This document shows, one piece after another, positions 19,893 through 38,578 of a stretch of 39,409 bases of DNA (the first letter of the stretch is position 1; each line of letters begins with the position of its first letter). Position numbers and translations under genes: made by a program. The DNA comes from Oscillospiraceae bacterium (lineage in GTDB: Bacteria; Bacillota; Clostridia; Oscillospirales; Oscillospiraceae), in NCBI GenBank assembly GCA_017535865.1, contig JAFXTM010000094.1, positions 1 to 39,409 on the forward strand, given 5' to 3'. The notes beneath the pieces were generated by a model. The model made no database searches, was not told the origin of the DNA, and saw only the letters and a program-made list of their open reading frames with translations.

Positions 19893-20810
19893 TCAGAGAG
19901 ACTGACACTCCTCGCTGAGTTGGTACAGATCCCGCGCCCGCGAGCCCTTTCCGATCGCTCTGAAGACCCAGCCGCCTCCCTTCCGGTAGGCCATGCCGAC
20001 GATCAGCGCGGTATCCCGGCTGAAGTTCCCGGTCACGGGATACTCGATCAGGGCCTTTCGGCTGTCCGGATCATACAGGCGGATATACAGATTGCGGATA
20101 CCGCCGAAGGTCTGGTTCCTGTCGGCGCAGCGATAGATGTTCAGCACGAAAACCAGACGGGACCTGTTACTTGGGACCTTGTCCAGATAGACGCTGATAT
20201 TCTCGTCGTCGGCGGCGTTGGGGATGTCATCTCCGGTCAGGTTGTCGCCATGATGGACCACACAGCCGGAGGGATGCACTTTGTCTCCGAAGTACACCAT
20301 TTCGCCCATCCACCCCTGTCCTGACTGAACAAAAACTGAGGAATCCACATCGATGTTGATGCCGGAGACGGCGGGATCCCAGCCCACGCCCACGATGATC
20401 TTCGAGAGCGGCCGATCGTCCGCATAGCGGATCGTGACCTCCTGCCCCTGCGAGAGGACGACCGTCTCCCCCGCCCGGCCGGACACCTCGGATCCGGTCG
20501 GAAGCGAATAGTCGATCTCCAGCTCGCTGCAGTAGATGCAGTCGAAGCGGTACTTCATGTGTTTCTGACAGGAGTACTTCTTCTTCGCGCAGCTGCAGCC
20601 GCCGACCCTGCGACTGCCGCACTGCGTGCAGGCGAGCAGGTTGCTGTTTGTCTCAAAGCTTGGCTGCCTGATCTCGGAAGAGAGCACAGCCGCCTCGTCG
20701 TCCGAAAGGTCGATCATATTGACGACCTTCCATGTGCTGCCGAACTGCTCGATCTCCAGTCCGTACCAGCGGTCCGTCTTACGGCAATGCGCCTTGAGGA
20801 ATTTTCTCAT
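19893..20810 (-). CDS. TerD-family protein with Cys-rich N-terminal domain
   Basis: A 305-residue protein whose residues about 115-300 form a TerD domain. TerD proteins bind calcium and are markers of tellurite/stress (ter) loci. Key signatures are GVGWDP at 141-146, NIDVDSSVF at 152-160 and HHGDNLTGDD at 186-195, followed by ISVYLDKVP, then FGGIRNLYIRLYD. The N-terminal 100 residues are extra. They contain cysteines at 61, 64, 72, 74, 81, 91 and 94 (CTQCG ... GCSC ... CIYC), a probable zinc-binding module, after a short domain of unknown fold. It is the last gene of the cluster, 46 bases after the transglutaminase gene. It is cytoplasmic by sequence. A role in metal or Ca2+ sensing is inferred from the family. 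Confidence 0.9.
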   Translation of the reverse strand: MRKFLKAHCRKTDRWYGLEIEQFGSTWKVVNMIDLSDDEAAVLSSEIRQPSFETNSNLLACTQCGSRRVGGCSCAKKKYSCQKHMKYRFDCIYCSELEIDYSLPTGSEVSGRAGETVVLSQGQEVTIRYADDRPLSKIIVGVGWDPAVSGINIDVDSSVFVQSGQGWMGEMVYFGDKVHPSGCVVHHGDNLTGDDIPNAADDENISVYLDKVPSNRSRLVFVLNIYRCADRNQTFGGIRNLYIRLYDPDSRKALIEYPVTGNFSRDTALIVGMAYRKGGGWVFRAIGKGSRARDLYQLSEECQSL

Positions 20811-20856
20811 TTTTTGTTTGCTCCTTCAATTATGCTTTCCTTACCGCCCGCTCTTC

Positions 20857-21888
20857 TCAGCAATCCAGGACGGCCGCGTCGATCCCCTTCGCGAGGAGCG
20901 CGGCCTTATTGTACTGCACATACCGCCGCGCGACGGCGAGGACCGGATAAGACCCTTTGCAGGGATGCGTATATTCCTTTTTCCAGGTCCTTTTCCCGTC
21001 GAAGAATCGATCGTTTTTGCAGAAATAAGTATAGCCTGGTCTTTTGTCTCCGGCATCCCATGTGACGTCGATGTGATAATAGCTGCCCGCCCCGCCCACA
21101 CAGACCAGGTTCCACGCGTGGTAGCCGTCCGAGCCCGTCACCTGCCCGTAGAGCACGTCGCACGCGATCCCCGCCGCGTCCATCAGACGCTTGAAGGCTT
21201 CCGCGAAGCCCTGGCAGACGCATTTTTTCCGGATCAGAGCGCCGTACGCGCTCTGGGTATAGCTCATCTTCAGCCGGTTATCATGATTCTTGAGATATTC
21301 GACCGTGGTCGCCAGGTAGTTGTGGGCGAGATAGACCTTTGCCTCGGTGGGCATGCCGGGCGTGAAGAGCATCCGGGAGATCCTCTGCACCTCCGTGTTG
21401 ACTTCCAGCTCCATTTGTTCCAGTCTGACCTGCCCGATCCGGTATTCAAAGGAAAACTCGATGATCACAGCGCCCGCCCTGCAAGGATAGGTCGCGCCGC
21501 AGATCCTTGTCAGATTCGGGTAAAAGGTCGTGTATCTCTCGTAGAACAATTCTATCAGGCGCTGCGCTTTCACAACGTCTTTCGAGATCATGACCAGTTT
21601 CTTTTTATACTGCCGCACATACTCGCGCATCAGGCGTTCGCAATCCCACTGGGAGAGCGCGGTCTCGATGGTTTCCCGTTTCGTTTCCCGGTTGCGGTAT
21701 TTCGGTATGAGCACGTAGTATCCGGGTGTTGAGGAAACCTCCCAGGATTCCACATAGTACACGATCCTCGGGTCCTTCTCGATCGCCTTCTCGACCAGCT
21801 CTCCCAGCGGCGCTCCCACCCGGAACGGGATGCTCGGCTGAAAGCGCTGCAGCCCCTTCTGGAGCTGCTCTGTCTCGTTCATCTCCAT
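20857..21888 (-). CDS. Transglutaminase-like cysteine protein
   Basis: A 343-residue protein with a transglutaminase/protease core in its C-terminal half. The candidate triad is C225 in KKCVCQGFAEAF, H257 in DGYHAWNLV and D274 in YHIDVTWD. The N-terminal 200 residues are predicted mixed alpha/beta and unrecognised. No signal peptide is seen, so it acts in the cytoplasm unless exported otherwise. Such domains act as peptidases or acyl-transferases on protein amide groups. I chose the start MEMNETEQ, which has GGAGGG 6 bases upstream, over a start six codons earlier. It follows the M48 protease gene closely, so the cluster encodes two proteolytic-type enzymes side by side. Confidence 0.82.
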   Translation of the reverse strand: MEMNETEQLQKGLQRFQPSIPFRVGAPLGELVEKAIEKDPRIVYYVESWEVSSTPGYYVLIPKYRNRETKRETIETALSQWDCERLMREYVRQYKKKLVMISKDVVKAQRLIELFYERYTTFYPNLTRICGATYPCRAGAVIIEFSFEYRIGQVRLEQMELEVNTEVQRISRMLFTPGMPTEAKVYLAHNYLATTVEYLKNHDNRLKMSYTQSAYGALIRKKCVCQGFAEAFKRLMDAAGIACDVLYGQVTGSDGYHAWNLVCVGGAGSYYHIDVTWDAGDKRPGYTYFCKNDRFFDGKRTWKKEYTHPCKGSYPVLAVARRYVQYNKAALLAKGIDAAVLDC

Positions 21889-21902
21889 GCCGGTCCCTCC
21901 GC

Positions 21903-22778
21903 TCAATACCGGTGGTACGGGACCCCCAGCTCCTGCAGCGCCCCGATGCGGTCGTTCGTCTCAGGGTGCGAGGAATACAGGGCTCTCAGAAACGAGCTCT
22001 GCGGAGTGCCGGTTCCGATCGAGTCGAGCACCTGGCAAAGCTGATACCCATAGCCGATCTGATAGGCGTATCGGTCGGCCTCGTATTCGTTCGCGCGGGT
22101 GGACCACATCAAAAACAGCATGCAGAACCTGGTCCACAGCCAGATGAAGCCGGTACACACGGCGCTGAACAGGGAGAGCAGGCAGCCCCCCGCGTCGGCC
22201 CGTCTGCCCACCAGGCTGACCGTCGCGATGCCGGTGCAGATGGCCGAGATGATCCGCAGCACCAGGATGAAAGCGGTGATGATGATATTCCCGCCGCCGA
22301 TCAGGAGCTGGATGGCCGTGTGCTGCAAGGCCAGATGGCCGATCTCGTGCGCAAGGACGCCCTCGATCATTTCATCCGGGAGCCCCAGAAGTCCCTCTGT
22401 GACGCATACGGTCCTTCTGCCGATGGCAAAGGCATTCGGATTGGGATCGTTCATCACCTTCAGGATGATCACGTCGGACAGGCTCGGCGTGGCCGCCTTT
22501 GCTTTGGCATACACGCGCTCAAGGATCGGGACGACACGGTTGCGCATATCGACCCGGCGCATTCTTCTGGCCCCGACAACGATACTCAGGACCCACTCGC
22601 CGAAGGAGGAGAAGGCCAGCAGAATCGACACAAGATACAGCACACACACCAGGGTCAGGCTCTCCTGCCCGCTGGCGGAAAAGATCAGGTAGAGCACGCC
22701 CGCATTGAGCAGGAAAAAGATGAGCGTGCCGATATTGCTGGGTCTGAACAGTCTTCTCACGAGATTGAACAGGTACAT
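21903..22778 (-). CDS. M48-family integral membrane zinc metalloprotease (HtpX-like)
   Basis: A 291-residue membrane protease. Two N-terminal transmembrane segments (about 17-34 and 42-68) precede the catalytic HEIGH motif (H144, E145, H148). Two more hydrophobic segments (about 163-190 and 198-226) follow, with the downstream STRANEYEAD motif giving the third zinc ligand (E231 or E233). This matches HtpX/Ste24-type quality-control proteases with the active site facing the cytoplasm. It starts two bases after the pseudo-ATPase stop, with TTGAGGAG in front. In this cluster it may cleave or activate membrane partners; the substrate is unknown. Confidence 0.9.
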   Translation of the reverse strand: MYLFNLVRRLFRPSNIGTLIFFLLNAGVLYLIFSASGQESLTLVCVLYLVSILLAFSSFGEWVLSIVVGARRMRRVDMRNRVVPILERVYAKAKAATPSLSDVIILKVMNDPNPNAFAIGRRTVCVTEGLLGLPDEMIEGVLAHEIGHLALQHTAIQLLIGGGNIIITAFILVLRIISAICTGIATVSLVGRRADAGGCLLSLFSAVCTGFIWLWTRFCMLFLMWSTRANEYEADRYAYQIGYGYQLCQVLDSIGTGTPQSSFLRALYSSHPETNDRIGALQELGVPYHRY

Positions 22779-22780
22779 AG

Positions 22781-24013
22781 TTACTCCTCAACAGATGTTT
22801 TTTTCCTCAGAAGAGGTTCCCGCAGATAGCACATGACCTCATTTTTTCTGAGCTCCCGGAACACCTCCGGCTTGTAGATCGGCTCGTTTACCTTTGTGAA
22901 GTTGGTAGTCGCCGTGTTGTATTTTCCCGGTCCGGGGACAACGCCCCCGTCCGAAATGGAAAAAGGATTCCAGCTTCTCTTTTTTGTGAAGGAATAGCTC
23001 TTCTGCTGGATGTCCCGGCTGCCGAAAAACGCGGACCAGAAAGCCGCGTTCTCAGGCGAGCCCTGAGTGAACACCAGGAAAGACCTCACATCGTCCAGGA
23101 CCGCATTCCCGTTTTTCGCGATATATCGCGTGATATCCTCGACGAACAGGTACGCAGCAAAATGGTAGGACTGGTTGTATTCCAGCGTGCTGCAGATATG
23201 ATCGCCCGAGATGAAGTCCGCGTTTTTTATCAGGAAAGCGACCCGGCTCCCTCCCTTTTCCCTTTCCAGGCACTTGGACAGAGCCTGGAAAAGCGCGTTG
23301 AGGAGCATCTCCTTTTTCTCAAAATCATCTCCGAGCATCCCGCTGAGCATCACGACGTTGCCGTCCCGCAGCAGATCCTTCATTTTGAGGCTGCCGGACA
23401 GGATGTCAAGCACGCCGCTGCTCTCCAGCTGGATGAGAGCGCTCTCCAGATCCAGAAAGATGGCATAGGTGCCGGCGTCTTCAAGGAAGCGGATATGGCG
23501 GTTTTTTTCCGCGGCGGGCAGCGGGGACGCCGTCACCTCCGCCGAGACGCGGTCTACGTCCATCCCGGCCAGATCCTTCAGACGGTAGGTTTTCCCACTC
23601 GCGTCCAGTGCGCTCATGGCGCAGAGGAAAAACCGGCTCGCCCGGAGTTTGGCCGAATCGGAGAGCTCCGCGCTCTGCGAGAGGAGCTCCAGCAGGAAGT
23701 CCGTCTTTTCCTTGTTTGTCCGGAACGCCGACAGGATGTCGACCGAGGCGGATGAGGCGCCGAGGCGGAGATCATACAGCGAGCGGCCCGGTATCCGGGC
23801 GCGCACATAATCACGGAGTGTCCGGTGCTGTTCTCCGGAGAGGGCGCCGTTAACGAGAATGATCGTCTTTTTCTCGACGAGCAGATTCAAAAGCAGATTG
23901 AAGTACAGCCTTCGGCTGCCTTCATTCTCGACGCCCGAGACCATCATGTTTCCCAGACTATGTGTGACGTCTTCGGTCGCGGGTCTCTCAAAGAGGTGAT
24001 TGACAATGGCCAT
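22781..24013 (-). CDS. Catalytically degenerate TraG/VirD4-like ATPase homologue (pseudo-ATPase)
   Basis: A 410-residue protein that I read as an inactive paralogue of the TraG-like ATPase at 25525-26811. Aligning by eye, NMMVSGVENEGSRRLYFNLL (from residue 22) matches the partner's HILYTGTIGTGKTTAIFQLL. The glycine spacing is kept, but Lys-Thr of Walker A is replaced by Ser-Arg (33-34). TIILVNGALSGEQ matches DVMVIFDTKGDFR. VAFLIKNADF (258-267) matches FFVIDEFRLL, with the Walker B Asp-Glu replaced by Lys-Asn. The C-terminus, EPIYKPEVFRELRKNEVMC, resembles coupling-protein tails. No membrane segments are seen. The start has GGGAGG six bases upstream. It may be a regulatory subunit or half of a mixed ring. 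The homology call is mine from pattern, not from a search. Confidence 0.65.
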   Translation of the reverse strand: MAIVNHLFERPATEDVTHSLGNMMVSGVENEGSRRLYFNLLLNLLVEKKTIILVNGALSGEQHRTLRDYVRARIPGRSLYDLRLGASSASVDILSAFRTNKEKTDFLLELLSQSAELSDSAKLRASRFFLCAMSALDASGKTYRLKDLAGMDVDRVSAEVTASPLPAAEKNRHIRFLEDAGTYAIFLDLESALIQLESSGVLDILSGSLKMKDLLRDGNVVMLSGMLGDDFEKKEMLLNALFQALSKCLEREKGGSRVAFLIKNADFISGDHICSTLEYNQSYHFAAYLFVEDITRYIAKNGNAVLDDVRSFLVFTQGSPENAAFWSAFFGSRDIQQKSYSFTKKRSWNPFSISDGGVVPGPGKYNTATTNFTKVNEPIYKPEVFRELRKNEVMCYLREPLLRKKTSVEE

Positions 24014-24031
24014 AGCGTGCCTCCCGAACAC

Positions 24032-24142: not shown

Positions 24143-24160
24143 GCGTTTCGTTTATCCGTT

Positions 24161-24751
24161 TCAAAATGCGTTTTTCAACAGAAACGCGCAGACGGCGTCT
24201 GCCAGAAGTCGGGCGCCTTCCTCGCTGTAATGAAGGCCGTCTTTCGAGCGGTACCGGTCGCCGAAGCTCGAAGCGAAGCGGTACAGGTCGTCAAAGCCGG
24301 CAACTTTCCCCCGCAGCGTCTCGACCGCGGCCGCGTTGTACGCCTCGATCTCGGCGTTGAGCCGGTACGAGCTGCCCTTCCGCACGTGTTCCAGTATCGG
24401 CGTGGAGGTCGCGAAGAAAACAGATGCACGGGGATAGCGGCCGTGCAGGATGTCGGCCGTCTCCGCCAGATTCTTCGTATACAGCTCCAGCGGCGTATGG
24501 GGCATCGGATTGCCTCCGAAGTGCAGGAGATCCCACAGGCCGTTGTTCCAGTGGATTACATCGTATTCGCCGTCCAGGGCAGGGATCAGCTCCTCGTGAT
24601 ACGCGCGCAGATAGCGAATGTCCTGGCAGTTTTCCGTCGGCAGATACACGCTCGCCTTTCCTTCCAGCTTCTCCCGCAGGAAAGCGCCGTAGCCGCGCAG
24701 TCTGCCGACCCCGTACATGATCGAGTCGCCGAGCAGAAGTATCTTTTTCAT
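24161..24751 (-). CDS. SGNH/GDSL-family hydrolase
   Basis: A 196-residue serine hydrolase of the SGNH fold. Block I is LLLGDSIMYG (nucleophile Ser in GDS), the block III asparagine is probably in HWNNGLWDLLH, and the block V Asp/His are in SKDGLHYSEEGARLLADAV. There is no signal peptide or transmembrane segment, so it is cytoplasmic. SGNH enzymes cleave acyl or acetyl esters of lipids, carbohydrates or peptides. In a ter-type cluster it could modify a lipid or a small molecule. AAGGAGA precedes the ATG. It lies 55 bases after the vWA gene. Confidence 0.85.
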   Translation of the reverse strand: MKKILLLGDSIMYGVGRLRGYGAFLREKLEGKASVYLPTENCQDIRYLRAYHEELIPALDGEYDVIHWNNGLWDLLHFGGNPMPHTPLELYTKNLAETADILHGRYPRASVFFATSTPILEHVRKGSSYRLNAEIEAYNAAAVETLRGKVAGFDDLYRFASSFGDRYRSKDGLHYSEEGARLLADAVCAFLLKNAF

Positions 24752-24806
24752 TTTTCCGCTCTCCTTTCACAGCTCCAGCTTGCTTTGGAAGCAGCGTCTG
24801 CTCCGT

Positions 24807-25502
24807 TCAGAGTTCGAACAGCTCGTCCATCGTCTTCCGCACGAACGAGGGCGTCAGGGAGCCGAGCGGGCAGAAATCCACCTCACACTCCTCCCAGTCC
24901 TGCAGTTCATTCCAGGGATAGATCTCAGGCGCCAGGACCAGCAGACAGCACACGGTATGCTTGAACGCGCCTGCCTCCTTCTGTCTGGCTATGTACCACC
25001 AGTCCCTGAGTCTTTCCAGATCTCCCGGCGCCTGCGGGTAACCCGGGTATTTCGCTCTCTCCCACAGTCTCCAGGCGGGAGCGTCGGTGAAGACGAACAC
25101 CAGCCGGTGGCGTCCCAGGGGATACAAGGTCCACTCGGACTTGAACGCCATCGACATCGCTTCCAGCGCGCAGGCCGGCTCGGCCTCTCCGGAATAGTTT
25201 TCCACGCCGCCGTATGCTTCCAGCGAATCGAGAAAGCGCCGGAGCTCGCTTTTCTGTTTCGGGAGCGTATAAAACGGCGACTCCTGCAGCGGTTCCGAAT
25301 CATACCCGTAATCCCGGAAAGCGATGACCTTCATCCTGGCCTCGCCCAGCTCAAAACCGGTCTCCCGAAAGCCGAGGCGAAAGCGGTCGAAAAACGTGAG
25401 GATCGTCTTCCGGATCTCATTCAGGACCGGCGCCATGCTCATGGTGACATCGACACACATCACGACATCGACAGGGATCGCCTGGTTCTGTCCTTCGTTC
25501 AT
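24807..25502 (-). CDS. TerY-like von Willebrand factor A domain protein (vWA-6)
   Basis: A 231-residue single-domain vWA protein. The metal-ion-dependent adhesion site (MIDAS) reads DVTMS in VVMCVDVTMSMAP, with KVIAFRDYGYD and LVFVFTDAP giving the other metal loops. It is the most divergent of the six vWA paralogues: the GGxDxPENALEA loop found in the others is replaced by a Cys-containing EPACALEAMSMAFKS, and the C-terminus differs. It sits apart from the tandem array, between the TraG-like ATPase and the SGNH hydrolase, so it may be dedicated to those partners. vWA proteins of this class are adaptors that dock ATPases, kinases or substrates through the bound metal. Confidence 0.85.
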   Translation of the reverse strand: MNEGQNQAIPVDVVMCVDVTMSMAPVLNEIRKTILTFFDRFRLGFRETGFELGEARMKVIAFRDYGYDSEPLQESPFYTLPKQKSELRRFLDSLEAYGGVENYSGEAEPACALEAMSMAFKSEWTLYPLGRHRLVFVFTDAPAWRLWERAKYPGYPQAPGDLERLRDWWYIARQKEAGAFKHTVCCLLVLAPEIYPWNELQDWEECEVDFCPLGSLTPSFVRKTMDELFEL

Positions 25503-25524
25503 TGTCTCTGCAGTCCTTCTCCGG

Positions 25525-26811
25525 TCAGCCCTCTCGGAACTTGAACTTCATGGGAGCCGTCTCGTAATCCGATACGGAGAGGATCGCCTCGCCCGGCTTC
25601 AGTGCGAGCAGATCCCAGTCCTCGACCACGTTCGAATAGGTCACGAGCTCCTTGTTCCCTTCGCTGTAGCTCGCCCCCTTGAAGACGAAGCGTTTCCGAT
25701 TGGTCCCGTACAGATTTTGAATGAATTCCTTCGTGGCTTTGTCCGTGACTTTGAATGCGATCGAGGTGCCGAAGCCGGACAGGATGCTGTATGCTTTTTC
25801 GTAGCCGTAGCCCTCGATGATCTGCTGGATATTCTGCATCGCGACGATGAACTTGGCGCCGAGGCTTCTGCCGAAGTTGACGCCGTTGTCGATATGGTAC
25901 AGGTTTGGGAGCAGCCGGAACTCGTCGATGACGAAAAAGACGTTGCCGTCGGTCTTGGTACGGCTCAGGGCTTCTTTGATGGCCAGGTCGAACAGGACCT
26001 TGTAGATCGGCGTAAGGACCGCGCCGATGCTCAGGTCGTATTCGATGAACAGGATCCTCCCGCCCTTGTTGCGCACGAACTCCCGGACGGAGAAGGCTCC
26101 GCTCTTCCGGAAGTTTCCGATGAACAGTTCGTTGGCCACGTTGCGCAGCTCCGAATACACGCCCTGCGTCTGCTCGCTGCCGTCGCCGCCGTTGTAGATA
26201 TAGTCGATGATGCCTCTCAGATCGCCGACGCTCATGAGCGCGTCCACGACGTCGTTGATGTTGGCGTCCCGCAGATAGGCGTACAGTTCCGCGTTGTCCA
26301 GGTACTCCGGCTCGCTCTTGAACATGATATAGGACATGATGCCGAAGAGCACGTCCTTGGCTGCCTGCGGAAAGAACGGAGCGTTGGAGCGGCGAATCTT
26401 TTCGGCGAACAGGGAATTGACGATCTCCAGGAGGTTCTCCTCGACCTGCTCCGCGCCGTTGATCCGGACTTCCTTGAAGATGTTCCAGTAGGCCGTGGCC
26501 TTCGAGTCGCTGCTGATGACCACGTCCTTCCCCGGACGGTAGAACCGCTCCCTGAAATCCCCCTTCGTGTCAAAGATGACCATGACGTCCTTCGGGGTCA
26601 TTTTGCGGACAAGCTGGTCGAGCAGCTGAAAGATCGCGGTCGTTTTGCCGGTACCGATCGTGCCCGTGTAGAGGATGTGCTTGCTGAGGACCCGGCTCGT
26701 AAGGGGGATCCGTTTTCCCTCTCCGATCAGTTCCACGCCTATATCCGACGTCGCCGGGGCGCAGATTGTTTCCTTCAGGGAAACGCCTTCCAGGATCTCC
26801 GTTTTTGTCAA
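25525..26811 (-). CDS. TraG/VirD4-like (FtsK-HerA superfamily) ATPase
   Basis: A 428-residue P-loop ATPase. Walker A is GTIGTGKTT (50-58), DVMVIFDTKGDF (75-86) is typical of TraD/VirD4 coupling proteins, Walker B is VFFVIDEF (D296, E297), and AMQNIQQIIEGYG (324-336) carries the sensor glutamine. The C-terminal WDLLALKPGEAILSVS matches the end of coupling proteins. The N-terminal membrane anchor usual for conjugative coupling proteins is absent, and no relaxase or type IV secretion genes are here. It is therefore likely a soluble DNA- or protein-translocating motor repurposed for the cluster. The start codon is TTG, with GGGAGG 8 bases upstream. Its apparent inactive paralogue is three genes downstream. 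Confidence 0.85.
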   Translation of the reverse strand: MTKTEILEGVSLKETICAPATSDIGVELIGEGKRIPLTSRVLSKHILYTGTIGTGKTTAIFQLLDQLVRKMTPKDVMVIFDTKGDFRERFYRPGKDVVISSDSKATAYWNIFKEVRINGAEQVEENLLEIVNSLFAEKIRRSNAPFFPQAAKDVLFGIMSYIMFKSEPEYLDNAELYAYLRDANINDVVDALMSVGDLRGIIDYIYNGGDGSEQTQGVYSELRNVANELFIGNFRKSGAFSVREFVRNKGGRILFIEYDLSIGAVLTPIYKVLFDLAIKEALSRTKTDGNVFFVIDEFRLLPNLYHIDNGVNFGRSLGAKFIVAMQNIQQIIEGYGYEKAYSILSGFGTSIAFKVTDKATKEFIQNLYGTNRKRFVFKGASYSEGNKELVTYSNVVEDWDLLALKPGEAILSVSDYETAPMKFKFREG

Positions 26812-26827
26812 TTACCGCACCTCCCGA

Positions 26828-28094: not shown

Positions 28095-28155
28095 ACAGCC
28101 GCGTCCTCCTTTTGAGATTTGTTTCAGTGCCCGTGCGCTGGTATCCGTCCGACGA

Positions 28156-31296: not shown

Positions 31297-32370
31297 TTCT
31301 TTTCCTCCTCTGCGTTATGGAACTCCGGCTCTGCTTCTCCGCGCCGGGGATCCTCCCGCATTTTTCACTTCTTATGGCAGTCTCCATGGGATACCGGCAC
31401 CCTGGGGATACCGGCATCCCATGAAATTACAGATTATGGGAAAGCTTTTTCATCAAGTCTCCGAAATCCCGGCCAGCCTTGTCAAAACTTCCGCGGCAGA
31501 CGGGCGAGCGTCCGGATCCGGGCTCAGCATATCCCGGATGAGCGCGACGCACTCCGGATTCTGGATCTCCGGGCTCAGCTGGAGCTTGCCGCCGTTGTTC
31601 AGCGCGGCCCAGCAGAAAACCGGCTTCCCCTGCTCCTGCCTTTTCCGGAGCTCTTCGGGAAGGTCGACCGGCGTCGGGAGGCACCCGCTCAGATAATAAT
31701 GGAAAACCAGGCCCAGGGAGAAAACATCGGATTTTTCCGTCAGCTTCTTCTCCAGTTCCTCCCGGTCATCTTCCGCGGAGATGCACATACCGAGCTCGGG
31801 AGAATAATATTCGATCGTGCCGAACAGCTCTTCCGGCTTTTTATCGACCGGATAGCTGCTGTCAAAGTCGATCAGTTTGGTGACATACTCCCCCGCCTGG
31901 TTGCGGACCAGCTGCAGATTTGAAAGATTGACATCGCTGTGTACGATATGGAGACTGTGAACGACGTGGAGGGCGCCGGCCGCCGTCTGCATCAGGAGTT
32001 TTTTTGCGGCGAACGGGAGGCTGGCCAGCACGCCGTCGAGTTCTTCTTTGGGAACGACGCCCTCCATAAATTCCGACGCCTCCACGAAGTGGTTGCCTTC
32101 GATGAACTCTTCGCAGGGAACGACGATGCTCCCGCTCTCCCCGGTGCACACCCGCAGGGACTGGTTGAGAATTCTACGCATACGGACAAACGCATCGAAC
32201 TTCTTCCGGTTGTATTCGAAGGTCCTGGCGTCCAGCGTACCGTTGTCGATCGGCGCCACGGGCGTCTGATATTTCTTCAGGAAATAGATCTTTCCATCTT
32301 TCTGGGCCCTTGCGATCTGACCTGAAGAGCTGTTTTTCCAGTCGCTGATCAGCTCGTAGCCATGGAAGCT
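30400..32370. repeat. Tandem duplication of the kinase-domain coding sequence
   Basis: About 0.9 kb (30400-31293) of the stand-alone kinase gene is closely similar at DNA level to 31477-32370, the kinase part of the PP2C fusion gene, at an offset of about 1077 bases. Long identical stretches exist, for example around the KKLMQTAAGALHVVH and VDLPEELRKR codons. Recent duplication with later divergence of the catalytic loop is the simplest reading. Confidence 0.75.
31385..31423 (-). other. Hairpin between the PP2C-kinase and kinase genes
   Basis: Inverted arms CATGGGAT (31385-31392) and ATCCCATG (31416-31423) enclose two direct copies of GGATACCGGCA. The interior can extend the stem partially. 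No T-tract follows, so it is more likely an mRNA processing or stability element than a terminator. Confidence 0.4.
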
Positions 32371-34470
32371 CTCCGTTTTCTCCTGAAGGTACTTTTTGAA
32401 GAGCTCCTCGTATTTTGCAAACAGAGCCGCCTGCAGCTCCGCTTTGGCTTTCAGTTCGTCCAGGTCTGTTTCCGCCTCTTTCATGAGCTTGATCGTCGCG
32501 GCGCGAAGGTCTTCGGAGATCGGGACCTTTGGATCCCCGACGATCGCCGGAATGAGCTCTGTGTAATGCTCGTCCCAGTAGGCTTTCCGGCATTCCTCGA
32601 CAAGCTTGTCCTTCTCTTCCGTCTCCAGGCTTGCAAGGAGTTTTCTCGCCTCGCGGATCCTTTCAATCACGTCCTGCAGTTCCTCGCACGCATGTGGAAG
32701 GATACAGGTTTCCGTGGCCTTCAGATCGAGTTTTCCGGCAATGGCCAACTCTCTGAGCTGACGGAGCTCCTCCCGGTGCTTGTTAGCCAAATTCTGGTTT
32801 TCCTGAATGAAGTCGCTGCGGAGATTCAGCAGTTTGCTGATAATCGGATGTTTTTTATTATTGATGTTTTCGAAGAAGCAGAATACCTCATCCAGCGCTT
32901 CTTCAAGCTCAAAGACTTCGGAGAAGCTCACGCCCTGAAAATCCAGATAGCTCTTCGGAACGCCGACGGACACGACCTGGTCGATCGTTTCCCGCATTTG
33001 CTCCGTCATTTCCGTGATCTGCTCACGGTATTCTTTGATCTTGCTCAAATACTTTTCTGTCTGTTCCCGAAACTTTCTTTCTTTGTCGGCAATCCTGTCC
33101 GAGGCGAGCCTCTCTCCAAAGGCCTCTTCGTGCGGCTGCAGGGAACGGAAACGGCTGAAGTTTCTTTTGATCTGTTCTTCGATCTCCCTCTCCGCTTCCT
33201 CGATCTTCCGCGCGGCGGCGGCGATCTTTTCGTCGAGTACCCGGTTTTTTTCCGCAAAGCGGGGATCCCGTCCGCTCTTGACCGCCTCCACACAGTATGC
33301 GCAGACAGCTTCTTCGCTTTCAAACAGGCCCTTCACGCTTGCAAGCGGGTCCGGCTTTTCCCTGGAGGCTTCTTCGAATTCTGCCGCATAGTCGCGCTCG
33401 AGAAGCTCCGGCAGCTTGGACAGATACGCTGCGTTCAGCGCATCCAGCCGGGCGGCGCAGCTCTTCTGAAACGCCTCGAAGGACTCATAGCCGAACATCT
33501 TCATGGCAATCGTGCTGCTGTCGTCGTCTGCCCGACCGTAATCATAAAACGCCTGGCAAAGCTTTTCGCTCATTTCCGCGGTGTCTTTGGATCCGACCGC
33601 CGCATCCAGAATAAACTTTTCAAAGGTCATCTGCGACCGGTAATACTTCAGCTCAAAGGCTCCGTCGCTCGCATTGAACAGGACGCAGGGCTTCGGGAAT
33701 CTCCGGTAGTAGCAGCTAATGCCGAAAGACTCGCCCTCGTTGGCCCGGATATAATTCGTCATGGCGCCGTCCTCGCCCTCCTGATCCTCGATCAGCTGGC
33801 AAAGCCCGTCCCGCTCCGTCCAGATATACGGTCTGGAGTCTCCGGCGTGCAGATAGATGGCCTCCACGGCATCTTCCGTCTCCCGGTAGATCGTGGCGCA
33901 AAGCGTGGTCCCGAGCAGAGCGAGATTTTCCAAGGAGCTTTCGTAGACCAGATTGGCATTCCTGGCAACCTGGCGCAGCTGGGCCTGGAACAGCTCCGCC
34001 AGTCTATCCCCGAGCTCTTTCAAGAGCGCTTCTCTCTTTTTCGGGGAAGTCTGCTCATGATACTTTGCGAACAGGTTTTCCGGCTGCAGATCCTCGATAT
34101 AGAGCGCGGCGTGCAGGAGCAGCGCAGCAAGGATGCGGGAGCCAAAATAACCGCTTTTCTTCATGTTCAGCTGTTTGCTGAAATAGCAGTGCTTGACGCC
34201 ATACAGCTCAAAGAAAGAGTTCGTCACATACCGGACGAATCTCTCGTCCGCATAATCGTCGAACACGCCGGCAAAGAGCGTATCAAGCAGCTTATCGGGC
34301 TCAAACAGTTCCCTCTTGAAGGACTGGTGGTAGATGGCCCCGCGGCCGCCCATGCCGTCCGCGACAAAAAAGAGCCGGTCGTCTACGTACGGGCTCGCAT
34401 CCTCGCCTTTATACACCTTTGTCCCGTCTTCACGCGTCTTTGTAGTCTGTCTGAATACGGTCAGTTCCAT
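31453..34470 (-). CDS. PP2C phosphatase - coiled coil - Ser/Thr kinase-like fusion protein
   Basis: A 1005-residue cytoplasmic protein in three parts. Residues about 1-330 are a PP2C-type phosphatase with DGMGG (38-42), LLGTTLCA, AGDSR (209-213), NASDGAF (267-272) and the metal aspartates ADDDSS (314-319), so it should be active. Residues about 400-700 are highly charged and helical, a long coiled coil. Residues about 703-1000 are a kinase domain with K732/K733 and DFD (868-870), but the catalytic loop reads HSDVNLSN (844-851): the usual Lys is Asn848. It may be a weak kinase or a pseudokinase. I chose the start MELTVFRQ, with AAGGGG upstream. Phosphatase, kinase and vWA proteins together form a TerY-P-like module; fusing PP2C to a kinase is unusual. 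Confidence 0.85.
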   Translation of the reverse strand: MELTVFRQTTKTREDGTKVYKGEDASPYVDDRLFFVADGMGGRGAIYHQSFKRELFEPDKLLDTLFAGVFDDYADERFVRYVTNSFFELYGVKHCYFSKQLNMKKSGYFGSRILAALLLHAALYIEDLQPENLFAKYHEQTSPKKREALLKELGDRLAELFQAQLRQVARNANLVYESSLENLALLGTTLCATIYRETEDAVEAIYLHAGDSRPYIWTERDGLCQLIEDQEGEDGAMTNYIRANEGESFGISCYYRRFPKPCVLFNASDGAFELKYYRSQMTFEKFILDAAVGSKDTAEMSEKLCQAFYDYGRADDDSSTIAMKMFGYESFEAFQKSCAARLDALNAAYLSKLPELLERDYAAEFEEASREKPDPLASVKGLFESEEAVCAYCVEAVKSGRDPRFAEKNRVLDEKIAAAARKIEEAEREIEEQIKRNFSRFRSLQPHEEAFGERLASDRIADKERKFREQTEKYLSKIKEYREQITEMTEQMRETIDQVVSVGVPKSYLDFQGVSFSEVFELEEALDEVFCFFENINNKKHPIISKLLNLRSDFIQENQNLANKHREELRQLRELAIAGKLDLKATETCILPHACEELQDVIERIREARKLLASLETEEKDKLVEECRKAYWDEHYTELIPAIVGDPKVPISEDLRAATIKLMKEAETDLDELKAKAELQAALFAKYEELFKKYLQEKTESFHGYELISDWKNSSSGQIARAQKDGKIYFLKKYQTPVAPIDNGTLDARTFEYNRKKFDAFVRMRRILNQSLRVCTGESGSIVVPCEEFIEGNHFVEASEFMEGVVPKEELDGVLASLPFAAKKLLMQTAAGALHVVHSLHIVHSDVNLSNLQLVRNQAGEYVTKLIDFDSSYPVDKKPEELFGTIEYYSPELGMCISAEDDREELEKKLTEKSDVFSLGLVFHYYLSGCLPTPVDLPEELRKRQEQGKPVFCWAALNNGGKLQLSPEIQNPECVALIRDMLSPDPDARPSAAEVLTRLAGISET

Positions 34471-34511
34471 CCTGGATCCCCTTTCGAAAAAATACACGCA
34501 AGCTGATTCCA

Positions 34512-34559
34512 GCTGCATGATAAAAGGTATGGTTTGTCCGTACGCCTTTATCATGCAGC
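34512..34559 (-). other. Leader hairpin 2, before the PP2C-kinase gene
   Basis: Perfect 13-base arms GCTGCATGATAAA/TTTATCATGCAGC around a 22-base loop lie about 40 bases upstream of the chosen ATG. No T-tract follows. It may tune translation or stability of the fusion protein mRNA. Confidence 0.5.
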
Positions 34560-34571
34560 GGAATACGAACA

Positions 34572-34608
34572 GGCCGGAGCAGATCGCGCATTGCCATCTG
34601 CCCCGGCC
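34572..34608 (-). terminator. Leader hairpin 1, possible weak terminator after the vWA-5 gene
   Basis: The stem GGCCGGGGCAGAT/ATCTGCTCCGGCC (13 pairs, one G-T) has an 11-base loop, ten bases after the vWA-5 stop. The following bases (TGTTCGTATTCC) are only weakly T-rich. It could reduce read-through into the PP2C-kinase gene. Confidence 0.4.
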
Positions 34609-34617
34609 AATATGTGC

Positions 34618-35301
34618 TTAGCAGGAGCCGACCACCAGGTCAATTACCGCTTGCATGTCAGTATCTTCACAGCCCTTGCCCCCGGTGAAGCTGGGCCAGT
34701 ACCGGTTCCACGCCTGCATTTCGGTCCAAGGCTCGGCATTCGGCACAAAGGCCACCAGTCTGCCCTTCGAAGCCTGGTACGTGCTGCTGAGAGACTGATC
34801 GGTCCCTTCCCACCAGGCGCCGAGTGCGGCGATATCGGCAGGCATGCCGGCGGGATACGAAGCGGCGCCCGATCTGGCGCTGAAAGCCAGCGCCGGCGCG
34901 TCGGAAAAGACCAGCACGATATGACGGCGATTGGATCCGCCAGTCGTCCAGTCGGACTTGAGCGCGAGCGCGATCGCCTCCAGCGCGTTCTCAGGTCCGT
35001 CGCCGCCGCCGGACGCCGTGATGCCGTTGACAAAGGCCTGGAGCGCGTCGTTCTCCTCCGGAAGCTTGAAGAACTTCGATTCCTTCATCGGCTCGGCGTC
35101 GCACCCGTAGTCGCGGAACGCGATGACCTTGATACGCAGCTGCTCCACATTTCTATCGGTCTCTTCCATGCCTTCCACGAACCTCTCATAGATGGAAAGC
35201 GCGTTTGCCTTCACCTCGTCGATAATGGGAGACATGCTGCCCGTGGCGTCGATGCACATCACGATATCAACAAAGTATTCGCCTGTTCCCTGTCCAGCCA
35301 T
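34618..35301 (-). CDS. TerY-like vWA domain protein (vWA-5), first gene of the core operon
   Basis: A 227-residue vWA protein with an intact MIDAS: DATGS in DIVMCIDATGSMSP, the KVIAFRDYGCD strand and loop, GGGDGPENALEAIALALKSDWTTGG, and LVFSDAP. It shares ESxFFxLP, WWEGTDQ and GRLVAFVPxxEPW with the array proteins and is most like vWA-1. It has a strong AAGGAGG site and its own promoter, and is followed by the PP2C-kinase gene. This is the vWA-PP2C-kinase order of the TerY-P triad. The protein is cytoplasmic and probably an adaptor bridging kinase/phosphatase to partners through its metal site. Confidence 0.9.
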   Translation of the reverse strand: MAGQGTGEYFVDIVMCIDATGSMSPIIDEVKANALSIYERFVEGMEETDRNVEQLRIKVIAFRDYGCDAEPMKESKFFKLPEENDALQAFVNGITASGGGDGPENALEAIALALKSDWTTGGSNRRHIVLVFSDAPALAFSARSGAASYPAGMPADIAALGAWWEGTDQSLSSTYQASKGRLVAFVPNAEPWTEMQAWNRYWPSFTGGKGCEDTDMQAVIDLVVGSC

Positions 35302-35417
35302 TGAATGATCCTCCTTGTTTTTTCGTTTGATTCATTATCTATATTTACAGCCGACCGTGCGGTCGATAACTGCCCGAAAAGAATGCCCTCCGGCGAGGCG
35401 CATCGTGTTCACAGAAA

Positions 35418-35446
35418 ACTATAAAATGAAACGCCTAAAAAGTCAA
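35418..35446 (-). promoter_or_regulatory. Promoter of the core operon (vWA-5 to terD)
   Basis: TTGACT (35441-35446) and TATAGT (35418-35423) are 17 bases apart on the minus strand, about 115 bases before the vWA-5 start. It is a strong sigma-A-type match inside a segment that is AT-rich for this genome. Confidence 0.82.
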
Positions 35447-35600
35447 TGGTGTCTCCGACAATATCGACTTTTTCGTCCGCGGCTCGGCCGACGGTATGCG
35501 CGCATCGGCGTCTCCGCCCTCAAACGCTCCCCCCTCTTTCTTGGCCATACAGACGACAGCCGTCCGAAAAAGTTCCCCAGGGCGAGAAAGCGGTTATGGA

Positions 35601-35680
35601 TTATATGCCGGCCGTCGCGTCGATGCACAGCACGATATCCGCATAATAGTTTTTTGGGCGTTCGGTGTTTGTTCGCTCAT
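35601..35680 (-). pseudogene. Broken vWA gene remnant
   Basis: AAGGAGG and ATG (35680) start MSEQTPNAQK. After a run of six As, the reading continues in another frame as YYADIVLCIDATAGI and a stop. Adding one A would restore MSEQTPNAQKN-YYADIVLCIDATAGI, matching the N-terminus of the neighbouring vWA proteins through the MIDAS DATxS position. Nothing of the remaining roughly 200 residues is recognisable. This is a frameshifted and truncated former array member. Confidence 0.75.
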
Positions 35681-35705
35681 GGTCGGAGCCTCCTTGTCAT
35701 CATAT

Positions 35706-35748
35706 AAAAACACAGGGACAGCGGGGAGCCCGGTCCCCGCCGCTGCCC
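35706..35748 (-). terminator. Terminator of the vWA array operon
   Basis: On the minus strand, GGGCAGCGGCGGGGA-CCGGGC-TCCCCGCTGTCCC forms a long GC stem with small bulges (35715-35748), followed by TGTGTTTTTATA. It lies 25 bases after the vWA-4 stop. Confidence 0.7.
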
Positions 35749-35773
35749 GGCAGGGCGGTCCGGGTAAAAGAGA

Positions 35774-36445
35774 TCAAGGGTCGGGGACCAGCAGGTCAAT
35801 TCCGCTTTCAACATCTATTTCGCTGGCTCCTATTCCGGCCCTGGAAAAGCACGGCCAGTACCGGTTCCACGCCTGCATCTCGGTCCAGGGCTCGGCATTC
35901 GGCGCAAACACAATCAGCCTGCCGGCTCTGGGCTGATATGTGCCTTCAAAGCTCGGATCGGTCCCCTCCCACCAGGAACCAAGCTGCGCCAGGTCTTTCG
36001 GCATTCCGTCCGGATAGCCGGGGCAGTCCGCTCTCGCGCCGAGGGGCAGCGCACCCGAGTCCGTGAAGAGCAGCACGATATGGCGGCGCCTGTATCCACC
36101 TGTCGTCCAGTCGGATCGGAGCGCGAGCGCGAGGGCTTCCAGCGCGTTCTCCGCGCCGCCTCCGCCGCCCTTCGCTTCGATCCCGTTCAAACAGCTTTCA
36201 AACGCATCCCTTTCTTCCGGCAGCGTGAAGAACGCCGACTCGACCATCGGTACCTCGTCATACTTGTAGTCGCGGAACGCGATCACCTTGATGCGAAGCT
36301 GTTCCAGTGTATAACCGGATTCTTCCACGCCTTCCACGTACTTCTGGAGAATGGAAAGCGCATTTGCTTTTACCTCGTCGAGATAGGGCGCCATGCTGGC
36401 TGTCGCGTCGATGCAGATCACAAAATCGGTATAGAATTCGTACAT
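35774..36445 (-). CDS. TerY-like vWA domain protein (vWA-4)
   Basis: A 223-residue vWA protein with MIDAS DATAS in FVICIDATASMAP, KVIAFRDYKYD, GGGGGAENALEALALALRSDWTTGG, LLFTDSGALPLGARAD, WWEGTD and NAEPWTEMQAWNRYWP. I chose the ATG giving MYEFYTDFV, with GAAAGG eight bases upstream. A GTG 33 bases earlier overlaps the vWA-3 stop (GTGA) and is a possible alternative that would add MSGACKRKAPI. It is the last gene of the array operon. Its C-terminus, IDVESGIDLLV, parallels vWA-1 and vWA-5. Confidence 0.87.
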   Translation of the reverse strand: MYEFYTDFVICIDATASMAPYLDEVKANALSILQKYVEGVEESGYTLEQLRIKVIAFRDYKYDEVPMVESAFFTLPEERDAFESCLNGIEAKGGGGGAENALEALALALRSDWTTGGYRRRHIVLLFTDSGALPLGARADCPGYPDGMPKDLAQLGSWWEGTDPSFEGTYQPRAGRLIVFAPNAEPWTEMQAWNRYWPCFSRAGIGASEIDVESGIDLLVPDP

Positions 36446-36474
36446 GATCGGCGCCTTTCTTTTACAGGCCCCGC

Positions 36475-37158
36475 TCACACGGGGGCCGCCATCAAAGTTA
36501 CGGCGAAAAACAGATCCGCCTCGTCAAGCTCGTTCCCCGCAAGGGAATACACCGTCAGGGCCTGCCACAGCTCGTCCAGCACGGCCCACGATCCCCTCTG
36601 CGGCACAAACGCAAGCAATCTGCCGACGTTCGGCTCGAAAGGACCGTCAAACGTCTCTCCGGTCCCTTCCCACCAGGCGAAAAACTCTTCCATGCTCTTC
36701 GGCATGCCGTCCGGATAGCGCGGGCTGTCCGCTCTTGCGCCGAGAGGCAGGGCCGCGTCGGCCGAGAAGACCCACACGATATGGCGGAGTTTTTCTTTTC
36801 CCGTCGTCCAGTCAGACCGGAGCGCGAGCGCGATGGCCTCCAGTCCGTTCTGCGCGCCGCCCCCGCCCTTCAGTTCTACCGCGTCCAGATAGTCCCGGAA
36901 CGCATCGTATTGCTCCGGCAGCGTGAAAAACGCCGACTCAGCCATCGGCTCCCCGTCCCGGCCGCAGTCGCGGAACGCGATCACCTTGACGCGCAGCTGC
37001 GCCACTTCTTTCTCCTGCTCTTCCAGCGTATCGACAAGGCGATTCAAAAGTTCGAGCATGGTCTGCTTCGACTGATCGATATAGCGCGCCATGCTTTCCG
37101 ACGCGTCCAGGCAGATCACGATATCGATATAGAAGGGGTCCTGCTGTGATTCTGACAT
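36475..37158 (-). CDS. TerY-like vWA domain protein (vWA-3)
   Basis: A 227-residue vWA protein starting MSESQQDPFYIDIVICLDASESM, with an intact DASES MIDAS. It shares AFFTLPEQYDAFRDYLDAVE, SDWTTGKEKLRHIVW and SADAALPLGARAD with vWA-2, so these two form a subgroup distinct from vWA-1, -4 and -5. The GGGD loop is GGGGAQNGLEA, and the C-terminal third is shorter on the EPW motif (QRGSWAVLDELW). The start chosen has GGGAGA seven bases upstream; five more codons are open before it. It lies 19 bases after vWA-2. Confidence 0.87.
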   Translation of the reverse strand: MSESQQDPFYIDIVICLDASESMARYIDQSKQTMLELLNRLVDTLEEQEKEVAQLRVKVIAFRDCGRDGEPMAESAFFTLPEQYDAFRDYLDAVELKGGGGAQNGLEAIALALRSDWTTGKEKLRHIVWVFSADAALPLGARADSPRYPDGMPKSMEEFFAWWEGTGETFDGPFEPNVGRLLAFVPQRGSWAVLDELWQALTVYSLAGNELDEADLFFAVTLMAAPV

Positions 37159-37177
37159 AAGCTGCTCTCCCAAATCA

Positions 37178-37864
37178 TCATTTATTCGGACTCGCCATCA
37201 CGAGGGCGGCTGCCTCCCTGTTCAGTTCGCGAAATCCTGTTCTCTCGATGAGGAACGCAGGCAAAACCCGTTTCCAGCGATCCAGCCCGATCCACGGTTC
37301 CTTCTTCGGGACAAACGCGATCAGTCTGCCGGCACTTGGCTGATAGGAGCTGCCGGGGGGCAGGCCGTTCCCTTCCCACCAGTCTCCGAGCTCTTCAAAG
37401 CTTTTCGGCAGTCCGCCCGGATAGGCGGGGCAGTCCGCCCGCTCGCCGAGGGGCAGTTCCGCGCCTGCCGAGAAGATCCACACGATCTGGCGGAGCTTCT
37501 CTTTGCCCGTCGTCCAGTCGGACAGGAGCGCGAGCGCGAGCGCCTCCAGCCCGTTCTGGGCCTCGCCGCCGCCCCTCGGTTCCACCGCGTCCAGATAGTC
37601 CCGGAACGCATCGTATTGTTCCGGCAGCGTGAAGAACGGCGATTCGACCATCGGCTCCCCGTCGCACGCATAATCCCGGAACACGATATACCTGGCGCGC
37701 AGCTGTGCCACTTCCTGGTCCTTTTTCTCCATGGTCTGGACAAAAGTATCCAGAAGCGCGGCCATCTCTTCTTTTGCCATGGAGAGATACGGCCCCATCC
37801 GGCGCGAGCCGTCCAGACAGATCACGATATCGATATCGTACAGATCCGGCATCGATCCCGTCAT
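37178..37864 (-). CDS. vWA domain protein with altered MIDAS (vWA-2)
   Basis: A 228-residue vWA paralogue close to vWA-3. Its MIDAS reads DGSRR in IVICLDGSRRMGP: the second serine of DxSxS is replaced by arginine, which should weaken or abolish metal binding. The VIAFRDY strand is also changed to YIVFRDYACD. The rest is conserved (FFTLPEQYDAFRDYLDAVE, SDWTTGKEKLRQIVW, WWEG, GRLIAFVPKKEPW). It may be a decoy or a subunit that binds without metal. GGAGA lies eight bases before the ATG. It starts 18 bases after vWA-1. Confidence 0.87.
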   Translation of the reverse strand: MTGSMPDLYDIDIVICLDGSRRMGPYLSMAKEEMAALLDTFVQTMEKKDQEVAQLRARYIVFRDYACDGEPMVESPFFTLPEQYDAFRDYLDAVEPRGGGEAQNGLEALALALLSDWTTGKEKLRQIVWIFSAGAELPLGERADCPAYPGGLPKSFEELGDWWEGNGLPPGSSYQPSAGRLIAFVPKKEPWIGLDRWKRVLPAFLIERTGFRELNREAAALVMASPNK

Positions 37865-37882
37865 TGTCCGCTTCTCCCGCCC

Positions 37883-38578
37883 TCAGATCGATCCGACCAG
37901 CAGATCGATGGCTTGCTGGATATCAATGTCGCTGAGCCCGGTCCCCGCCTGCGAGAAAGCAGGCCAGTACCGATTCCACGCCTTCATGCTCGTCCACGGC
38001 TCGGTCTCCGGCACAAAGGCGACCAGTCTGCCCGCCTTTCTCTGGTAGGTGCTGCAGAGCGTCTGATCGGTGCCCTCCCACCAGGAGCCAAGCTGGGCGA
38101 TCGTCTTCGGCAGATCGCTCGGGTAGTTGGGACAACCCATCCTCTCTCCGAGCGGCAGCGCCGGCGCGTCGGAAAAGACCAGGATCGTGTGGCGTCTGTT
38201 CGACCCCGACGTCGTCCATCTGGACTTCAGCGCAAGCGCGATCGCCTCCAGTGCATTCTCCGGGCCATCCCCGCCGCCGCACGCCTCGATGCCGCTGACA
38301 AAGCGCTTGAAAGCCGCGCTCTGATCCGGCAAGGTGAAAAAGTCGGACTCGAGCATCGGCACGGAGTCGCACATGTAATCCCGGAACGCGATCACCTTGA
38401 TCCGGAGTTGGGAGACGTCCTTGTCCTTGTCTTCCATCGTGTCGACAAAGCGCTGATAAAACGTCATCGCGTTCTTCTTCACTTCTTCGATGATCGGAGC
38501 CATACTGCCGGTCGCATCGATGCACATCACGATATCCACGCAGTATTCGCCCATGCCCTGTCCCTGTACTGCCGCCAC
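37883..38578 (-). CDS. TerY-like vWA domain protein (vWA-1), first gene of the array operon
   Basis: A 231-residue vWA protein with intact MIDAS DATGS in DIVMCIDATGSMAP, KVIAFRDYMCD, GGGDGPENALEAIALALKSRWTT, LVFSDAPALPLGER and WWEGTDQTL. It is most similar to vWA-5. I chose a GTG start because GGGGG lies about nine bases upstream and because the resulting N-terminus (MAAVQGQGMGEYCVDIV) parallels vWA-5 (MAGQGTGEYFVDIV). TTG two codons earlier and ATG ten codons later are alternatives. A consensus promoter precedes it. Confidence 0.87.
   Translation of the reverse strand: MAAVQGQGMGEYCVDIVMCIDATGSMAPIIEEVKKNAMTFYQRFVDTMEDKDKDVSQLRIKVIAFRDYMCDSVPMLESDFFTLPDQSAAFKRFVSGIEACGGGDGPENALEAIALALKSRWTTSGSNRRHTILVFSDAPALPLGERMGCPNYPSDLPKTIAQLGSWWEGTDQTLCSTYQRKAGRLVAFVPETEPWTSMKAWNRYWPAFSQAGTGLSDIDIQQAIDLLVGSI

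Follow-up and report, generated by a model that had tools for sequence, protein, structure and literature searches.

The window considered here is the whole of a 39,409-nt contig (C21) from a gut bacterium of the Oscillospiraceae, whose genome is available as a MAG-like (metagenome-assembled-genome-like) assembly of 2.48 Mb in 118 contigs (80.5% complete). It carries an island of about 19 kb with 19 intact genes and one remnant of a vWA gene, all on the minus strand, in which a TerY-P-like signalling set is combined with nuclease, ATPase and protease genes. As stated in a first-pass annotation of this DNA, the cluster lies between two housekeeping genes, a 5'-nucleotidase gene to the left (18137-19807, plus strand) and a gene for the C-terminal part of pyruvate phosphate dikinase (PPDK) to the right (38838-39356; PEP-utilizers_C 8e-14). 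The remnant had also been recognised correctly; the accompanying count of 18 intact genes had to be raised to 19. One of the 19, at 28156-28572, encodes a 138-aa protein (X138) with an equally long homologue at the corresponding position of a related cluster, and may or may not be the gene missing from the earlier count. In 1-kb bins, G+C content is 53.5-61.8% at 20001-39000 vs 60.1-71.0% at 1-19000. At the end of the PPDK gene, i.e., at the island boundary, positions 38767-38816 form a perfect, terminator-like inverted repeat with 25-nt arms. Pfam scanning covered 18 of the 19 cluster proteins (all except X138), and PADLOC models were run against all 19. Identities given below refer to the only other complete copy of the cluster, found in a Clostridia bacterium of another family from horse faeces (JAKSRG010000006.1; G476), or to a 4.3-kb contig named Lachnospiraceae (L066), which holds a part of it.

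The signalling core consists of vWA proteins, a PP2C phosphatase and kinases, all of which are present as had been annotated. Each of the six vWA proteins has a Pfam vWA match, three of them well over the cut-off, one barely and two below it. Five lie at the PPDK end, namely vWA1 (37883..38584; VWA_4 3e-11; 63% identity to G476), vWA2 (37178..37864; VWA_2 9e-5, below cut-off), vWA3 (36475..37173; VWA_2 4e-6, just over cut-off), vWA4 (35774..36478; VWA_2 4.8e-8) and vWA5 (34618..35301; VWA_4 1.8e-11; 66%), and vWA6 (24807..25502; VWA_2 3e-5, below cut-off) occupies a variable slot further downstream. According to the alignment, the DxTxS motif of the metal ion-dependent adhesion site (MIDAS) is intact in four of the six and damaged in two, vWA2 having lost MIDAS residues and vWA3 one such residue. 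The remnant at 35302..35773, which contains stop codons in the given frame, looks like a seventh vWA copy, as suggested by N-terminal matches of only 15-16 aa and one copy of a 58-nt repeat.

Next to vWA5, a single gene (31453..34554) encodes a PP2C domain, a long linker and, at the C-terminus, a second kinase domain (5e-19). PP2C is absent from the Pfam report on this protein, and its assignment is based on four metal motifs together with a match to the NCBIfam model Stp1 (2.2e-6; 27 bits vs a cut-off of 230). The fused kinase domain has HSDVNLSN as its catalytic loop, from which the usual Lys is absent, and is 75% identical to the neighbouring Ser/Thr kinase (29773..31296; PF00069 2.4e-23; 48% to G476). 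Since PP2C and kinase are separate genes in G476, and in view of the high identity between the two kinase domains, the fusion looks like a local duplication; the orthology of the two phosphatases rests on 31% identity. The fusion, which had been suggested as a marker for co-occurrence searches, was consequently rejected as a general feature. Plasmid matches of the kinase are distant, and the match of the PP2C-kinase in a phage collection is a faecal scaffold unverified as phage, for which only open reading frames (ORFs) were listed. A TerY-P-like set of vWA proteins, PP2C and kinase with conserved motifs is present at the locus, and the expected motifs are kept not only in the kinase 29773-31296 and the PP2C, and in the TraG-type ATPase (Walker A and B), the GHH nuclease, the M48 protease and the transglutaminase-like protein described below, but also in their G476 orthologues.

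The kinase ends in three copies of a repeat domain, EPWPEH, which the first pass had noted as unrecognised, and alignment places a fourth copy at the C-terminus of a zinc-ribbon protein (29249..29755; weak zinc-ribbon matches below cut-off; 32% to G476). The G476 kinase and zinc-ribbon protein likewise carry three copies and one copy, respectively. A profile search returned three of 391 class genomes, i.e., the own genome, G476 and one marginal, stop-interrupted match (E 9.7e-4), and since its eight copies are the eight rows of the query, this search speaks for absence from the other genomes rather than for new copies. The domain has no relative in the PDB and could possibly represent an unrecognised OB-like fold; we read it tentatively as a docking module. 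Two further small genes follow. One encodes a zinc-ribbon membrane protein with TTG start and hydrophobic segments (28581..29219; Zn_ribbon_RanBP 0.0013, below cut-off), whose pairing with the G476 protein Zn2 is based on position and architecture, as BLAST linked the two only via the short zinc ribbons of other partners. The other is X138 (28156..28572), which has four hydrophobic segments; it was present in the ORF list and was recognised only via its G476 homologue (33% over 124 aa).

At the opposite end of the island, the described pairing of a GHH nuclease with a SUKH partner was substantiated. The nuclease is a stand-alone protein of the HNH/EndoVII fold (26828..27565; PF15636, Tox-GHH, 4e-17), and the adjacent gene (27549..28094; PF09346, SUKH-1, 2e-12; 57% to G476) encodes its likely, predicted inhibitor. 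As the domain match begins at residue 11 of 245, the nuclease has no N-terminal delivery region, and no phage match was found for it. Its Ser/Lys/Arg-rich tail carries SKTLxxQ repeats in all three orthologues. In the form SK(T/S)(L/F)xxQ(R/K), the motif occurs in 2, 3 and 2 copies, which none of 20,000 shuffles reached in each case; the motif was noticed first and tested afterwards, and the shuffles preserve composition only. The repeated Ser/Thr residues make the tail a candidate phosphorylation target.

The neighbouring gene encodes a soluble TraG/TrwB-type ATPase with Walker A and B motifs (25525..26811; PF10412 6.6e-49; 74% to both G476 and L066), whose best solved relative is TrwB (structure match 5e-15). 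By simple hydropathy, it lacks an N-terminal transmembrane (TM) segment and has one marginal segment at residues 260-278. Scans of viral contigs with this protein and with the product of 22781..24031, termed dTraG (39% to G476, 41% to L066), gave no match. The two had been annotated as an active/dead pair of TraG-like ATPases, of which the active partner stands and the dead one is unproven, its similarity being weak. dTraG has no Pfam, plasmid or PDB match, and neither a strict Walker A nor a Walker B motif was matched; residues 141-148 of the window protein fit a loose Walker-A-like pattern, for which the G476 protein gave no match. Comparison of a nine-member TraG profile with the three dTraG proteins (hhalign) aligned TraG 276-375 with dTraG 249-343 at E 0.026 and a probability of 1.9%, and fewer sequences gave 0.5% and E 0.12. 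Hmmsearch found the equivalent region of the G476 dTraG at E 0.015 and the L066 dTraG at 0.26, the window protein being unlisted. One TraG relative also matches the G476 dTraG (blastp 0.001, phmmer 0.0075), and the pairwise alignment of the G476 pair falls in another region than the profile alignment. A 433-aa neighbour of TraG at another locus (L083) was rejected as a second "dead TraG" (hhalign E 0.2 with TraG and 0.26 with dTraG; hmmsearch 0.1), and since this unrelated-looking protein outscores the L066 dTraG, the case for dTraG is weak, too. Judged from these alignments, it is possible that dTraG is a degenerate TraG relative.

The remaining genes encode an HtpX-like M48 membrane metalloprotease with HEIGH motif and hydrophobic segments (21903..22778; PF01435 5e-24; 54% to G476, 56% to L066), a transglutaminase-like protein with Cys, His and Asp kept and no TM segment by hydropathy (20857..21906; PF01841 3e-8; 40% to G476, with a homologue also in the L058 locus described below), a TerD-domain protein with a cysteine-rich, by eye zinc-ribbon-like N-terminal region (19893..20810; PF02342 1.8e-44; 58% to G476) and, in the variable slot, an SGNH/GDSL hydrolase (24161..24751; PF13472 7e-11), which is not found at this place in G476 and L066. 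For these four, as for the GHH, SUKH and kinase genes, the initial assignment was confirmed by a Pfam match in each case. Membership in a ter operon (TerC, TelA, TerD) was rejected: the TerD-domain gene is the only one in the genome, no PF03741 match to TerC was obtained at 1e-3 in this 80.5%-complete genome, and a TelA gene without internal stops lies on another contig (G000:C64:6732-7709), unlinked to TerD.

The cluster is a conserved, collinear unit, and the expectation that its genes travel together was supported by one full and one partial further copy. Fourteen of 391 sampled class genomes matched the PP2C-kinase query at E <=1e-12 and two of the 391 hold the complete cluster, the own genome being included in both counts and G476 being the other complete case. 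Fourteen of the 15 cluster genes in G476 have collinear counterparts in the window, 13 of them recognised by sequence (31-74% identity) and one, the zinc-membrane gene, by position. Starting at the vWA end, their order is vWA1, vWA5, PP2C, kinase, zinc-EPWPEH protein, zinc-membrane protein, four-helix protein, SUKH, GHH, TraG, dTraG, M48, transglutaminase-like protein and TerD, as in the window. The fifteenth gene encodes a protein that has its N-terminal region in common with the TerD protein (TerD-N protein; L050:8630-9664); the cysteine-rich N-terminus is followed by a different C-terminal part, which has a weak, below-cut-off match to a beta-galactosidase trimerisation domain. The G476 cluster sits inside a 90-kb contig, and its flanks, judged by eye from their translations, are genes of the phosphoglycerate mutase and mannose-6-phosphate isomerase types, so that the site differs from that in the window. 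Pfam scanning of G476 covered one gene. In L066, GHH, TraG, dTraG and the start of M48 are adjacent. GHH thus adjoins TraG in all three copies, from at least two families, and the SUKH gene adjoins GHH in both copies reaching that far (window and G476). The slot between dTraG and TraG is variable, holding the SGNH and vWA6 genes in the window, the TerD-N gene in G476 and nothing in L066.

TraG itself matched seven of the 391 class genomes at 1e-50, own included, and within the fetched stretches (about 7-20 kb per locus, 52 kb for G476) other cluster genes lie near its relatives only in G476 and the own genome. A scan of a species-genome collection with two strict TraG peptide patterns gave two matches, G476 and L066, which is a lower bound because of the strictness of the patterns. 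dTraG matched one of 398 phylum genomes and one of 150 family genomes, the own genome each time.

The signalling core is more widespread. We fetched the surroundings in 14 related genomes (the 13 others from the PP2C-kinase search and G092), and vWA, PP2C and kinase genes stand together in 13 of these, G476 included (12 of 13 besides G476), the exception being a short contig with the kinase only (L057). Apart from G476, none of the fetched stretches contains TerD, M48, TraG, dTraG, GHH or SUKH at 1e-4. These triads adjoin other genes, so that a recurrent signalling core is combined with a varying effector end. For example, a sister cluster in G423 (L058:99-14050) has a transglutaminase-like protein, vWA, a long PP2C, kinase and zinc-ribbon membrane proteins, and encodes at its opposite end a TPR-CHAT caspase-like protease (1.4e-40) where the window has GHH, TraG and M48. 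The L058 locus also encodes a protein with a weak match to the TerY_C zinc domain (3e-5, below cut-off), and an integrase-like gene, recognised by reading its translation, lies at 19406, about 5 kb beyond the cluster. Several membrane or zinc-ribbon proteins, and also the kinase, encoded at vWA-PP2C-kinase loci of other Clostridia have a C-terminal tag of the FKxAGDL type (~F-K/x-x-AGDL) in common, e.g., in L056:6155-13345, L059:9711-11420 and L060:3280-5511. A regular expression for it matched 16 of 254 ORFs in seven of 15 loci (L055, L056, L057, L059, L060, L062 and L064); as it was written after three loci had been seen, independent support comes from L055, L057, L062 and L064. Two similar C-termini in L061 end in TGGDL instead. 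The tag may serve for docking in the kinase system; the C-termini examined from the window's cluster, X138 included, do not carry it.

Hints on how the island came to its place are given by a relative of the same genus (G927), in which the two flanking genes, with 84% and 91% nucleotide identity, are separated by 364 bp between their aligned parts vs about 19 kb in the window. A gain or loss of the island as one block is probable, and insertion is likely without being the only explanation, because the flanks adjoin in only one of 20 same-genus relatives searched and G927 was not searched for the island elsewhere. In the other relatives, the flanks are on different contigs, or at least one was not found, or they share a contig at a distance of 24-66 kb (G934, and G921 via a paralogue).

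Among known systems, the TerY-P triad comes closest. Its kinase is described as having a C-terminal zinc ribbon, or an OB-fold in the stand-alone type, and ATPase insertions occur (PMC11090510); a reconstructed cluster of the Helicobacter pylori type includes WXG, FtsK ATPases, a helicase, an LHH nuclease and McrBC-type genes (PMC4978471), and a TerY-P system of Pseudomonas aeruginosa is active against Autographiviridae, with most cells surviving (PMC10889362). Like the H. pylori and CoCoNuT-linked clusters described in these sources (PMC11090510, PMC4978471, PMC10889362), the island groups vWA, PP2C and kinase genes, has more than one vWA copy, and includes a P-loop ATPase as well as a nuclease of HNH type close by. 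However, its kinase ends in EPWPEH repeats instead of a zinc ribbon or recognised OB-fold, the zinc ribbon being located on the separate EPWPEH protein 29249-29755. Moreover, the ATPase is of TraG type and the nuclease of GHH type with SUKH, and M48, transglutaminase-like and TerD proteins are added; McrBC, WXG and FtsK families gave no match at the Pfam cut-off among the scanned cluster proteins. Because its kinase lacks the zinc-ribbon tail of the defined triad, we class the island as a variant, and judged by sequence it is a variant of the TerY-P triad. Of the original designation "ter/TerY-P type", the TerY-P half is therefore retained and the ter half is given up, there being one TerD, no TerC match and a TelA gene elsewhere.

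Type III-A CoCoNuT extensions likewise include TerY-P, duplicated vWAs, one with altered MIDAS, and inserted ATPases (PMC11090510). The island has a comparable set, but its MIDAS changes are at other residues, and the Pfam-scanned proteins include no match to CoCoNuT McrB/McrC or HEPN/coiled-coil genes. The MADS defence system combines a DNA methyltransferase with MAD6 and MAD8. The best PADLOC matches of the island proteins are indeed mad6 for the kinases (2.9e-30 and 7.5e-24) and mad8 for TraG (1.9e-17); membership was nevertheless rejected, as the kinases reach 64 and 60 bits vs an NCBIfam MAD6 cut-off of 460 and no methyltransferase was matched by Pfam among the scanned proteins. In line with the first-pass view, no single PADLOC system explains the set. 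We found no described system with this gene set in the open-licence literature searched; the founding ter/TerY-P paper of 2012 lies outside that search and could mention it.

To the reading that this is a horizontally acquired conflict or stress island, built on a TerY-P-type phosphorylation switch which would steer the GHH nuclease and the soluble TraG motor, we give about an even chance. Most likely, the island would sense attack or stress and switch its nuclease/motor effector by phosphorylation, and an intracellular defence or stress role is our best guess. A perturbation, e.g., phage attack or envelope/chemical stress, would be sensed by TerD, the vWA proteins and the membrane and zinc-ribbon proteins; these could join the kinase in an assembly formed via the EPWPEH domain. 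The kinase would then phosphorylate its clients, a plausible one being the nuclease at its Ser/Thr-rich SKTLxxQ tail. This could relieve inhibition by the SUKH protein or dock the nuclease on the TraG motor; the motor would move along DNA or feed it for cleavage, and PP2C would reset the switch. The M48 and transglutaminase-like enzymes might act as further proteolytic effectors or adjusters. Several points weigh against this proposal, including a putative anti-phage output: of the three copies known one is partial, the evidence for insertion comes from a single relative, the tail-phosphorylation step builds on a motif found after looking, the scanned cluster proteins include no McrBC or restriction match, and an envelope or metal stress role would suit TerD, M48 and zinc ribbons just as well.

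The last point leads to an alternative which we regard as unlikely and yet worth serious attention, namely a chemical or envelope stress island without anti-phage role, in which damaged membrane proteins would be the targets of TerD, the zinc ribbons, the HtpX-like M48 and the transglutaminase-like protein, and DNA repair or processing would fall to the nuclease and ATPase. The retention of TerD and M48 in G476 and the presence of membrane and zinc-ribbon proteins are consistent with such a function, and the anti-phage tests that we found described concern other TerY-P systems. On the other hand, a toxin-type GHH nuclease with its SUKH partner stands at the core of the island, the distribution is sporadic (the two of 391 class genomes mentioned above), and a CHAT protease is found near the equivalent signalling genes in L058.

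Quite improbable, in our view, is that GHH and SUKH arrived as a polymorphic-toxin/immunity cassette in an otherwise unrelated signalling cluster, whose remaining genes would have another function. Tox-GHH with Imm-SUKH is a listed toxin/immunity pair, and the island contains both the nuclease domain and the partner family (PMC3482391); moreover, one of the two plasmid relatives of the GHH domain is annotated as an RHS protein. Unlike polymorphic toxins, however, the island nuclease is stand-alone, lacks a delivery region and is embedded in a signalling island, and its linkage to TraG in all three copies, across families, argues against a chance arrival.

A decayed conjugative or integrative element that retained its coupling ATPase has even less in its favour. 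TraG best matches coupling proteins, with 3178 of 3290 records of distant plasmid matches typed conjugative, the flanking genes are adjacent in G927, and an integrase-like gene lies beyond the L058 cluster. But hydropathy shows no TM segment at the N-terminus of the ATPase, three of the four best-matching plasmid relatives looked at are on plasmids typed non-mobilizable, and the Pfam-scanned cluster proteins include no relaxase, type IV secretion system (T4SS) or integrase match. The absence of relaxase and secretion genes noted at first pass was hence reproduced, and a conjugative element was rejected, the coupling-type ATPase being the only such match. An assembly artefact joining foreign DNA to housekeeping genes, conceivable for a MAG-like genome in 118 contigs, is hardly credible given that the cluster lies between two genes which are neighbours in G927 and that an equivalent gene order occurs within the 90-kb contig of G476.

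Returning to the phosphorylation-switched conflict or stress island, a more far-reaching version can be formulated, which we offer tentatively and consider rather doubtful as a whole: the vWA-PP2C-kinase core would be a plug-in chassis recruiting interchangeable effectors via docking modules (EPWPEH here, the FKxAGDL C-terminal tag in other Clostridia) and would drive an active/inactive TraG-like pair that loads a phosphorylation-gated GHH nuclease onto DNA. If true, this would amount to a type of defence mechanism that has yet to be described. TerY-P modules are known beside restriction- or secretion-type genes and some block phages, and we found no description of the path from the kinase to its effectors. 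Since the kinase and the zinc-ribbon protein have EPWPEH in common and the nuclease bears repeated Ser/Thr motifs, a direct kinase-to-nuclease route can be tested in this island, which is also suggestive of a conjugation-type DNA motor that would be employed without conjugation.

In six of nine loci with relatives of the soluble TraG ATPase, from other Clostridia and from megaplasmids of Paenibacillus and Curtobacterium, a nearby gene encodes a membrane protein of one family, bPH-like by eye and with a zinc ribbon in several members (four members match one another in phmmer at 2e-3 to 3e-38; the profile was built from three of the six). This partner was rejected for the window and G476 (best E 0.29, in a set that held the X138 of G476, not that of the window). 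In the six loci (L080:2668-5976, L081:7079-11661, L082:9581-13488, L068:12971-15200, L067:10757-15206 and L070:10835-15290), the bPH-like protein and the TraG relatives possibly form a separate conserved module.

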